From Chloroflexota bacterium (GTDB lineage Bacteria > Chloroflexota > Dehalococcoidia > CAUJGQ01): DNA of 62,303 nucleotides. Below, in pieces: positions 46,792-51,124 of the stretch (position 1 is the first letter of the stretch; every line of letters begins with the position of its first letter). The stretch spans positions 1 through 62,303 of the forward strand of contig CAUJGQ010000080.1 of NCBI GenBank assembly GCA_963170165.1. Reading direction: 5' to 3'. The position numbers and the translations under genes are program-made. The notes under the pieces are model-generated. The model ran no database searches. It was not told where the DNA came from and was given only the letters and a program-made list of their open reading frames with translations.

Positions 46792-47022
46792 TCAGCGGGG
46801 CGGCGTGAGCCGGGCAATGCGCAGGAGCTCGTAGTCGGTCGCGCAGCCGTTACAGAGGAGGCTACCGTCGTAGCGGATGGCGCCCGCGGCCGGGCGGTCG
46901 CGGTTGCAGGTGGTGCAGTGTACCTGGGCGGCCGGGTGCAGGCCGCGGCTGCGGTCGTCCTCGCGCAGGATGCGCATCACCTCAAACACCGCCCGTACCT
47001 GCGCCCGTGTTGGCCCGTGCAT
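46792..47022 (-). CDS. Small zinc-ribbon protein
   Basis: 76 aa. Two CxxC knuckles (CTTCNRD and CNGCATDY) spaced by about 20 residues form a likely zinc ribbon. The N-terminal part is a helix (TRAQVRAVFEVMRILRED). Function unknown. The ATG at 47022 has GGAG 8 nt upstream; longer starts are possible but lack this. Confidence 0.65.
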   Translation of the reverse strand: MHGPTRAQVRAVFEVMRILREDDRSRGLHPAAQVHCTTCNRDRPAAGAIRYDGSLLCNGCATDYELLRIARLTPPR

Positions 47023-47164
47023 CGCCATCGCTCCTGTCGCGGGCATGGCCCGCTTGCCCGTGCCCGCACCGGCAGCGTAGCGACGTGGGGTTGCCGGCAC
47101 GTTACAAGTGTGTCAGCGTTGCGTGAACAGTTCCGCCGATCTGATGTCAACCGTGGGAGGCGCC

Positions 47165-48229
47165 ATGCTGCTCACCTCACTCACTGTGGATCTGCCGGCG
47201 CTGGCGGCGCGCACCGGCTGGGAGATGAAGCCCGAGGGCGCCTGCAAAGGCGATGTCTGTGTGCCGCTGGCGGGCACGGACCCGACGAATGCCCGCGCAC
47301 TGGCGGCCCGCCTGGGGATGCCGCTGGTGGAGGATGCGGCGCATGGCCTGTGGGCGCTCGGTCCGGAGGTAGGGGGACGTGCCCTCACCACCGCCCGCGC
47401 GCCAGAGATCGCGCTGCCCAACCTCGAGGGCCAGCCGTTCCATCTCTCCTCATTGCATGGCCGGAAGGTACTGCTGGTGGCCTGGGCCTCCTGGTGAGGC
47501 TGCCGGATGGACCTGCCCGTGTGGCAGGCACTCCGCGCCGAGCTGGCGCCTCACGGACTGGAGGTCGTCACCGTCGCCCTCGATATCGACCCAGAGCGCG
47601 CCCGTCCCTGGATTGAACGCGCCCAGCCGCAACATCCCTCGCTGATCGATAGCGCTCACGTGCTCGATGAGGTGCTGGGCGTGGTCAATGTGCCCAACGG
47701 TATCTGGATTGATGAGGACGGGATGATCGTGCGCCCGGCGGAACCGGCCTTCCCGGAGCGGCCCGCCGGCACGGTGTCTGGCCCCCGGCCCGCATCCGCC
47801 GCGCCTGTGCCCGATCTGTCTGACCATCAGCGGGCCGTGCTGGCGGAAGCGCGTAAGATCCGCGTGGAGCGGGAGAAGTACACCGCTGCCCTGCGCGACT
47901 GGGTGGCACACGGCGCGGCCAGCCGCTTCGTCCTCGGGCCGGACGAGGTGATCGAGCGCAGCCGGCCGCGCGGCGTGGAGCAGGCCACCGCCGCGGCCCA
48001 CTTCGAGATCGGACAGCACCTTCATCGGAGTGGTGACGCCGCGGCGGCCATCGCGCACTTTCGCCAGGCCCACCGCCTGGACCCGGACAACTGGACGTAC
48101 AAGCGCCAGGCGTGGATCCTCGTCCACCCAGAGCAGGGACCGACCGAGCACTACGACTCGGACTGGCTGCGCGACGTCCAGCGCCTTGGCGCTGAGCGCT
48201 ACTATCCGCCGCTGCAGATGCCGGAGTGA
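47165..48229 (+). CDS. TlpA-like redoxin with in-frame UGA (candidate selenoprotein)
   Basis: The reading frame passes through a UGA at 47495-47497, inside WASW-(UGA)-GCRMDLPVWQALR, exactly where a thioredoxin-like redoxin has its first active-site Cys. Reading through gives 354 aa: residues 1-70 novel, 75-190 a redoxin (PNLEGQPFHLSSLHGRKVLLVAWASW, then VTVALDIDPE and VNVPNGIWIDEDG), and a C-terminal TPR-like helical part (HFEIGQHLHRSGDAAAAIAHFRQAHRLDPDN). The motif would be U111-G-C113. A hairpin (47512-47528) with a G in its apical loop begins 15 nt downstream. The second half alone has no ribosome binding site. A nonsense mutation or base error is the alternative. Start ATG 47165 follows GGGAGG. 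Confidence 0.7.
47512..47528 (+). promoter_or_regulatory. SECIS-like hairpin after the in-frame UGA
   Basis: CCTGCC (47512-47517) pairs with GGCAGG (47523-47528) leaving the 5-nt apical loop CGTGT. The loop starts 21 nt after the UGA and its second base is G, meeting the published bacterial SECIS rules (stem of at least 3 bp, loop 16-37 nt away, G among the first two loop bases). Being in coding sequence, chance formation in GC-rich DNA is possible. Confidence 0.5.
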
Positions 48230-48726
48230 GGGCTGAGGTGAACGACCGCGACCCCGGCCCGGTGACCGTTCATCTCCTGGCAGATATCCCGCGGCACATC
48301 GCGGCCGTGGGCCACATGCGCTGGCAGGAGTGGGGCCGGCCACCCGAGCCGGTGGAGGAGGCCTTCTGGGTCGAGGTTACCGCCCGCGAAGCCGGCCGCG
48401 GTGGCCTGCCGATCACCTGGGTCGCGGTCGATGCGGCCGGCGAAGCGCTGGGCGCGGTGGCGCTGATCGCGTATGACATCGCCGAGCGGCGCGACCGCTC
48501 GCCCTGGCTGGCGGGCATGATCGTGCGGGCAGACCGCCGCAGGCAAGGCACCGGCCGCCGGCTGGTAGCCCGGCTGGAGGACTGGGCCCGGGCGCAGGGA
48601 TATCAGCGGCTGTGGGTCGCGACGGGTCCGGCCGCACCCTTTTACCAGGCGTGCGGGTGGGAGTTGAGCGAGCGGCTGTCGCTGGCCTCAGGCGAGGAGG
48701 CGACGGTACTGAGCAGGCAACTGTGA
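48226..48726 (+). CDS. GNAT-family N-acetyltransferase
   Basis: 166 aa. GNAT fold with the acetyl-CoA loop RADRRRQGTGRRLVARLEDWARAQGY (Q/RxxGxG) and the final strand ATGPAAPFYQACGWELSERL. The GTG at 48226 overlaps the stop of the redoxin frame by 4 nt (GTGA); a second GTG at 48238 has GAGGG at a better distance. Substrate unknown. Confidence 0.83.
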   Translation: MRAEVNDRDPGPVTVHLLADIPRHIAAVGHMRWQEWGRPPEPVEEAFWVEVTAREAGRGGLPITWVAVDAAGEALGAVALIAYDIAERRDRSPWLAGMIVRADRRRQGTGRRLVARLEDWARAQGYQRLWVATGPAAPFYQACGWELSERLSLASGEEATVLSRQL

Positions 48727-48820: not shown

Positions 48821-49336
48821 ATGGCCCGCAAGTTGAACAAGAACCTGGTGGCGCTCGGCTCGGCCGCCATTGTCACCGTTTACAGTATTGGCCTGGCACG
48901 GACGCACTCGGCCGGCTCGGGTGCGGCGGTGGCGCCGCCGGTTGATGCCGCCACCGCCATCGCCCAGGCGCTCGCCACCGCCACCCCGGCCGCCGCGATT
49001 CAGGTACGCGACACCGCCACCGCTACCCCGGTGCTGACGGCCGCGCCGATCACGAGCGCGCCGGTCTCCTACCGCGACGGGGTCTTCACCGGCGCCGGCA
49101 CCAGCCGCTTCGGCGGCTTCGAGGTGGCAGTCACCATTGTCGACGGCCGCATCACCGGTGTGGAGCTGACCAGGGTCACCACCCGCTACCCGGCGTCGCG
49201 CGTCTCACGGCTGCCGGCCCAGGTGGTCGAGCGGCAGAGCGCCAATGTCGATATGGTCACTGGCGCCACCGCCAGCGCCCGCGCCTTCCGGGATGCCGTC
49301 GCCCAGGCGCTGGCGCAAGCCGCGGCCCAGGGATAA
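48821..49336 (+). CDS. FMN-binding domain protein (flavinylated, secreted)
   Basis: 171 aa. N-terminal signal/anchor helix, an Ala/Thr/Pro linker, then an FMN_bind domain (about 82-170): YRDGVFTGAGTSRFGGFEVAVTIVDGRITGVEL and the attachment motif VTGATAS, with Thr150 the site of covalent phosphoester-FMN. It should hold FMN outside the membrane and pass electrons. It precedes ApbE, the enzyme that attaches FMN, by 4 nt. ATG 48821 follows GGGAGGG. Confidence 0.9.
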   Translation: MARKLNKNLVALGSAAIVTVYSIGLARTHSAGSGAAVAPPVDAATAIAQALATATPAAAIQVRDTATATPVLTAAPITSAPVSYRDGVFTGAGTSRFGGFEVAVTIVDGRITGVELTRVTTRYPASRVSRLPAQVVERQSANVDMVTGATASARAFRDAVAQALAQAAAQG

Positions 49337-49340
49337 CGCC

Positions 49341-50297
49341 ATGTCCCCCCTCACCCCGCCCCGCACGGCCAGCCGCTCGCTGGTGGCAATGGATACCCTC
49401 GTCACCGCGCGGGCCGAAGGGCCTGACGCTGGTGACGTGCTGGATGCAGCGTTGCGACGGGCGCTCGCCTGGTTTCCGGAGGTCGAGCGCGTGTGCAGCC
49501 GTTTCGACCCAGACAGCGAGTTGTCGCGGTTGTGCGCCCGGCCGGGAGAGACCATCGCCGCCGGTCCCCTCTTGTTCGAGGCGCTGGCCTTTGCCCTTGA
49601 CGTTGCGGCGGTCACCGGTGGCGCCTTTGACCCCACGGCCGGCGCGGCTCAGCAGGCGCGCGGCTTTCGCCGGAACTACCGGGATGGACAGCAGACACCG
49701 GACAGCGGGCAGGGCGAGCAGACGGCAGCGCGTGCCGCGGGATATCGTGCGGTGCGGCTGGACCGCCGGCGCCGAACGGTGACGCTGGCCCGGCCGCTGC
49801 TGCTTGATCTAGGCGCGGTGGCCAAGGGGCTGGCGGTGGATCTGGCGGCGCGCGAGCTGGCAGGGATGGAGCGGTACGCGGTGGAGGCGGGCGGGGATCT
49901 GTTCGCCGGGGCCGCGCCGGGGGCGGAGCCATGGCGGATTGGCGTGCGCGATCCACGTGGCGATGGGCTGCTGGGCACGCTCTCGCTGCGCAACCTGGCC
50001 GTGTGCAGCTCCGGCGGCGATGAGCGCCCCGCGCCGGCGGCTACGGACGGCGAACATCACATCATTGATCCGCGCTCCGGCCGCTCTCCCCGTGCCGTCA
50101 GCGGGGTGACGGTGATCGCCCCCGCCGCCATGACGGCCGATGCGCTGGCCACAGCGGCGATGGTGCTCGGCCCGGTGCGCGGGGTGCACCTTCTCGATGA
50201 ACAAGGCGTGGCAGGGATCGTCGTGCCCCGGCAGGGGGTGGTGCGGTTCACGCGGGCCTTTCCAGGAGCAATGCAATGGTCACCAATATTGGCGTGA
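49341..50297 (+). CDS. apbE: FAD:protein FMN transferase (ApbE)
   Basis: 318 aa. Transfers FMN from FAD to Thr in [S/T]GAT motifs. ApbE landmarks: MDTLVTARA start, FDPDSELSRLC, GAVAKGLAVDLAA, EAGGDLFAGAAPG, and the metal/FAD site DGEHHIIDPRSGRSP with the later VIAPAAMTADALATAAMVLG. No signal peptide is obvious, so location (cytoplasm or exported) is not clear. Overlaps the next gene by 22 nt. Confidence 0.92.
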   Translation: MSPLTPPRTASRSLVAMDTLVTARAEGPDAGDVLDAALRRALAWFPEVERVCSRFDPDSELSRLCARPGETIAAGPLLFEALAFALDVAAVTGGAFDPTAGAAQQARGFRRNYRDGQQTPDSGQGEQTAARAAGYRAVRLDRRRRTVTLARPLLLDLGAVAKGLAVDLAARELAGMERYAVEAGGDLFAGAAPGAEPWRIGVRDPRGDGLLGTLSLRNLAVCSSGGDERPAPAATDGEHHIIDPRSGRSPRAVSGVTVIAPAAMTADALATAAMVLGPVRGVHLLDEQGVAGIVVPRQGVVRFTRAFPGAMQWSPILA

Positions 50298-51124
50298 CGC
50301 GCGCCGTTTTGCCCCCGGTGTGGGACCGGCAACTGAAGAAGGCACGGCGCTTTGTCCGCTCACCCAAGGGCTACCTGTTGGTAGCGCTGGTGGCGCTGGC
50401 TATTCCCGGTGTCGTGCAGGCGGGCAGCGGCGCGCTGTCCATGCTCGTGTGGGCAGCGGCGGGCGCTGCCGGTATGGAAGTGGTGCTGGTGCGGCTGCGC
50501 GGCAGCGGCTGGCGTATCCCCAGCAGCGCCCTGCTCACCGGGCTGATCACCGGTATGGTGTTGGGCGCCGCCGAACCCTGGTACGCCGCGCTGGGGGCGG
50601 GGGTGCTGGCTACCGATGCCAAGCACCTGCTGCGCTCTGGGCGGGCGCACATCTTCAATCCGGCGGCGGCTGGCCTGGTGGCCGTGTATTTCCTGTTTGG
50701 CACCGGCCATAGCTGGTGGGGGGCGCTCGCCGAGCTGCCCGCCTGGGTCAACCTGGTGGCGCTGGTCCCCTATGTGCTGGTGGCGGAGCGCGCCAATAAG
50801 CTGCCCGCCGCGCTCAGCTTCCTGCTGGCGTACTTCGGCCTGCTCACCGCCGCTGCCTTCGTGCAGCCGGAGACGGTGGCGGAGCTGTACCGCCAGCCGT
50901 TCCTGGCGGCGACGCTGTACTTTGCCTTCTTCATGGTCACCGACCCGCCGACCTCTCCGGTGCCGTTCCGCGATCAGTTGTGGTTCGGGCTGCTGACCGC
51001 GGCCGCCACCTTCGCCCTGTTCGAGACCACCGGCGCTGTGTACTTCTTGCCCGCGGGGCTGCTGGTGGCGAACGCCGCCTATGCCGCCTGGCGCATCGCG
51101 CGGCAGCCCGGCCGGGGGCGCTGA
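50276..51124 (+). CDS. RnfD/NqrB-like membrane protein
   Basis: 282 aa, about nine hydrophobic helices. The RnfD/NqrB signature loops GRAHIFNPAAAGLVAVYF and FFMVTDPPTSPVPF are present. It lacks the [S/T]GAT flavin motif, so it is not itself flavinylated by that rule. With the FMN-binding protein and ApbE it forms a compact extracytosolic electron-transfer module of the type described in flavinylation surveys. Confidence 0.85.
   Translation: MVTNIGVTRAVLPPVWDRQLKKARRFVRSPKGYLLVALVALAIPGVVQAGSGALSMLVWAAAGAAGMEVVLVRLRGSGWRIPSSALLTGLITGMVLGAAEPWYAALGAGVLATDAKHLLRSGRAHIFNPAAAGLVAVYFLFGTGHSWWGALAELPAWVNLVALVPYVLVAERANKLPAALSFLLAYFGLLTAAAFVQPETVAELYRQPFLAATLYFAFFMVTDPPTSPVPFRDQLWFGLLTAAATFALFETTGAVYFLPAGLLVANAAYAAWRIARQPGRGR

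Follow-up and report, generated by a model that had tools for sequence, protein, structure and literature searches.

The selenoprotein gene and its reading frame

The window analysed in this work is a stretch of 62,303 nucleotides from a Chloroflexota genome (contig CAUJGQ010000080.1 of GenBank assembly GCA_963170165.1). On its forward strand, two open frames in the same phase are split by a single TGA at 47495-47497. When this TGA is taken as a residue, the two halves join into one frame of 354 amino acids that ends in a TGA terminator at 48227-48229. The original prediction was that the adjacent frames would unite into one redoxin if the UGA were read, with the UGA falling in the active-site sequence W-UGA-G-C-R. 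Both points are borne out, as the joined frame contains a WAxxUGC motif with a UGA codon for U (WASW-TGA-GC, 47483-47503), and the homologues described below have TGA or TGC at this codon. The features of the locus are listed in Table 1.

The two halves of the frame have equally high GC contents at third codon positions (GC3 of 0.83 in the first and 0.84 in the second), therefore coding pressure extends beyond the UGA. Of the two candidate start sites, the upstream ATG at 47165 has the better motif, the Shine–Dalgarno-like GGGAGG. It had also been claimed that the second half has no ribosome-binding site of its own. This is nearly right: the ATG at 47507 is preceded, 7 nt upstream, by a weak GAGG that overlaps or is made by the UGA region itself. 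A standard gene finder would report the locus as two broken halves, of 110 and 240 amino acids, of one conserved selenoprotein.

Table 1. Features of the selenoprotein locus (positions in the window)
Feature	Position	Strand	Basis
Selenoprotein gene, Sec at residue 111	47165..48229	+	NF041054 WAxxUGC_long; GGGAGG before ATG 47165
N-terminal module, residues ~1-75, with invariant C27-x4-C32 and GW..KPEG	47165..47390	+	Alignment; confident model
Redoxin/TlpA-ResA thioredoxin-fold domain, residues ~77-197	47393..47755	+	Pfam; ResA/TlpA profile matches; Foldseek
In-frame UGA, U111 in WASW-U-G-C-R	47495..47497	+	TGA conservation in homologues; host Sec machinery
bSECIS hairpin, 6-bp stem, loop CGTGT	47512..47528	+	Same place in TGA homologues; rule in PMC13188914
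C-terminal all-helical TPR-like tail, residues ~220-342	47822..48190	+	Pfam TPR_2; helices in model
GNAT acetyltransferase, sharing GTGA with the end of the selenoprotein gene	48226..48726	+	Pfam Acetyltransf_1

Conservation of the UGA codon

As proposed with the original prediction, we compared the codon at the UGA position across homologues. The alignment holds 48 homologous sequences (two loci contribute two tandem copies each), drawn from independent assemblies, some belonging to the host's class and others recorded as Actinomycetota, Acidimicrobiia, Acidobacteria, Gammaproteobacteria and Alphaproteobacteria. These are approximately 30-61% identical, and the conserved sequence runs on beyond the TGA. 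The aligned codon is TGA in 45 sequences and TGC in the remaining 3, with no other codon found. An in-frame UGA is therefore aligned with cysteine, the pattern expected of a selenoprotein.

A less exotic reading is that a TGC or TGG codon has been mutated to, or miscalled as, TGA, splitting a cysteine-containing redoxin into a pseudogene or an assembly artefact. In favour of it, the assembly is in draft form, with 213 contigs. However, the same TGA recurs in 45 of the 48 sequences, across several phyla, and NCBI models the family with UGC. The recurrence in independent assemblies rules out a sequencing error or a recent pseudogene, and we regard this explanation as extremely improbable.

Some variation within the family deserves mention. 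Two loci (L021 and L022, from genomes G194 and G161) host two tandem copies each, and the TGA occupies the shared codon position in both copies. In another (L028), U-S-C replaces U-G-C. Two divergent relatives, L033 (192-902) and L034, have the TGA within U-K-C or U-A-C, not U-G-C. The first of these is seemingly shorter, with a frame of 237 amino acids, and in both the alignment with the query begins only near its residue 80; these could be a distinct subfamily or truncated sequences.

Selenocysteine machinery in the host and its relatives

The host genome (4.41 Mb, 97% complete) contains all of selA, selB, selC and selD, the genes that the original prediction pointed to as a check. The tRNA-Sec scores 70.1 bits and has the anticodon TCA (tRNA anticodon UCA; ARAGORN), while selA (503 bits), selB (318 bits) and selD (355 bits) all score above their cut-offs. 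The selD gene itself carries one in-frame TGA.

The frame at 47165-48229 would also be open if UGA had been reassigned throughout the genome to another amino acid, e.g. tryptophan. Yet the gene's own terminator is a TGA and TGA stops are found in normal genes, the homologues without TGA have cysteine and never tryptophan, and the genome has a complete Sec system. The probability of such a reassignment is next to negligible.

Across the family, the choice of codon appears to track the Sec machinery. Two of the TGC members come from genomes of the same class as the host (G043 and G156), in which neither selA nor selB exceeds its cut-off and no tRNA-Sec match scores above 47.0 bits, versus 65-74 bits in the TGA genomes. 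The third, Gordonia hydrophobica, uses TGC despite having selB and tRNA-Sec, so the correlation in these sequences is strong but not perfect. A complete selA was not found in three genomes with a TGA gene (G136, G024 and G157), whose assemblies are 81-92% complete. Setting the TGA members against the TGC members in genomes lacking selA and selB gives an elegant natural control on the use of Sec.

The hairpin after the UGA

The SECIS-like hairpin of the original prediction consists of CCTGCC (47512-47517), the loop CGTGT (47518-47522) and GGCAGG (47523-47528). Its stem starts 14 nt, and its loop 20 nt, from the UGA. The published rule for bacterial SECIS elements asks for a loop of 3-9 nt with a G in the first two positions and a stem of 4-16 bp, at 16-37 nt from the UGA (PMC13188914). 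As predicted, the hairpin fits in loop size, stem length, loop G and spacing.

The hairpin alone proves little. The energy of the 51-nt fold is -23.7 kcal/mol and its z-score a modest -1.49. Chance matches to the rule are frequent in the window, where a rule-fitting hairpin with a stem of 6 bp or more follows 170 of 1409 UGAs (12%), and also 4 of the 16 UGAs that lie between a pair of long frames. Furthermore, the stem sequence is in part set by the encoded peptide DLPxWQ. We rejected a statistical proof from the hairpin alone, because this constraint, the codon-constrained nulls and the in-window background together leave it weak by itself. A search of the region against Rfam gave no match to a SECIS family, which says little.

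The evidence that rises above the chance level comes from comparison with the homologues and the family model. Of the 45 TGA homologues, 36 have all six pairs of the stem; for these 36, random synonymous codons would already give approximately 21 complete stems. A rule-fitting hairpin is found in 40 of the 45, with 27.6 expected under the synonymous-codon null. As the sequences are related and hence not independent, these comparisons are indicative. In all 45, the Leu117 codon ends in G. The hairpin stays in register across the family, with an outer T-A pair in place of C-G in five TGA members. In all three TGC homologues the stem is broken or incomplete.

Protein family and architecture

The joined protein matches the NCBIfam family NF041054 with 535.7 bits (E-value 5.5e-161), residues 1-352 aligning with model positions 1-354. 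The equivalog cut-off of this model is 300 bits, and the match spans the whole protein. In Pfam, the AhpC-TSA/Redoxin domain lies at residues 77-197 and TPR_2 at 276-309, the latter just above its cut-off. An AlphaFold model for which 37 family members were used has high confidence (pLDDT 92.8, pTM 0.90), and its best solved matches in a Foldseek search are ResA, followed by DsbE/TlpA-type proteins. Profile matches to ResA and TlpA structures were also found. The prediction of a U-x-C redoxin with a TPR-like tail thus agrees with the family match, the modelled thioredoxin fold and the helical tail. Four residues are invariant in the alignment: C27, C32, U111 (Cys in the TGC member) and C113.

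These results bear on the possibility that the UGA simply ends a protein of 110 amino acids, and that the 240-residue frame from ATG 47507 encodes a separate, translationally coupled protein. The weak GAGG before this ATG would allow for such a start, but a stop at the UGA would cut the thioredoxin fold between the active-site strand and helix 1 (residues 112-130 in the model). In addition, the TGC homologues encode one uninterrupted protein, and the start residue, Met115, is not conserved, with F, Y, N and others at this position. We consider the two-protein arrangement very unlikely.

Interpretation and proposed mechanism

The comparisons of sequences establish the frame, the family, the conservation of the UGA and its co-occurrence with the Sec machinery, while the thioredoxin fold of ResA/TlpA type is a confident prediction of the model. 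It is very probable that 47165-48229 functions as a gene for a selenoprotein of an already known family, WAxxUGC_long (UGC-containing TlpA/Prx-like). The checks run from among those proposed with the original prediction, on the sel genes and on the codon in homologues, came out in its favour, as did the register of the hairpin across the family.

From what is known of selenoenzymes, SelB carrying Sec-tRNA(UCA) would recognize the hairpin just after the UGA. Selenocysteine would then be inserted at residue 111, and translation would run to residue 354 rather than stop at 110. In the product, a ResA/TlpA-type fold, the usual CxxC would be shortened to U-G-C. The Sec selenolate may attack a disulfide or a peroxide, with Cys113 resolving the intermediate as a selenenylsulfide. 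The protein most likely works as a redox enzyme of the thiol-disulfide or peroxide type that acts through its selenol. The N-terminus shows no evident signal peptide and the location is presumably cytoplasmic. The helical tail may have a role in protein interactions.

A more tentative idea, suggested by the conserved sequence, is that the C27-x4-C32 module passes electrons to or from the U-G-C within the same chain, while the helical tail docks a specific substrate. We think this rather unlikely; if it is correct, the family would be a self-contained three-part selenoenzyme.

Relation to known selenoproteins

The classical members of the fold, ResA and TlpA, are membrane-anchored proteins with a C-x-x-C active site instead of U-x-C, and host neither the N-terminal C-x4-C module nor the TPR-like tail. 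The protein described here shares the thioredoxin fold and the position of the active site with Bacillus ResA (PDB 1st9 and 2f9s) and Bradyrhizobium TlpA (1jfu); its U-G-C is one residue shorter than their motif.

The original prediction took a U-x-C redoxin fused to a TPR-like tail to be an unusual type of selenoprotein. This does not hold, as NF041054 ('ResA-like WAxxUGC motif-containing protein') is an equivalog family that already describes it. The two have in common the whole length (profile positions 1-354 of 354), WASWUGC and the Sec position; the score is far above the cut-off, and no difference was found in the features compared. The GOS survey of Zhang and Gladyshev from 2008 (PMC2398784) already gave counts of UGC-containing Prx-like selenoproteins, and UGC-containing Prx/TlpA-like selenoproteins appear in catalogues from 2022 (PMC9312934) and 2026 (PMC13188914). 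The catalogued UGC-containing Prx-like/TlpA disulfide reductase selenoproteins likewise have U-G-C in an AhpC-TSA/TlpA domain, a likeness drawn from their description, and the entry for the type may also cover shorter relatives. Given these catalogues and the family's own NCBIfam model, the finding is not new in kind. The gene is a real and well-supported new example of a catalogued kind, and adds a member to an uncharacterized family.

Genomic neighbourhood

The downstream GNAT gene is probably co-transcribed with the selenoprotein gene in the host genome. A by-eye comparison of part of the neighbours in 13 other loci found no conserved gene neighbourhood that could point to a substrate; the neighbours differ, which argues that the acetyltransferase is not a conserved partner. 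Among plasmid records, no full-length relative was found.

Upstream, and divergent from the selenoprotein gene, a frame of 102 amino acids (46792-47100, reverse strand) has two zinc-ribbon-like C-x-x-C motifs and no Pfam match. Downstream, the forward strand carries an FMN-binding domain protein, an ApbE flavin transferase and an RnfD/NqrB-like membrane protein in a row (48821-51124), possibly a small flavin electron-transfer unit beside the selenoprotein gene.
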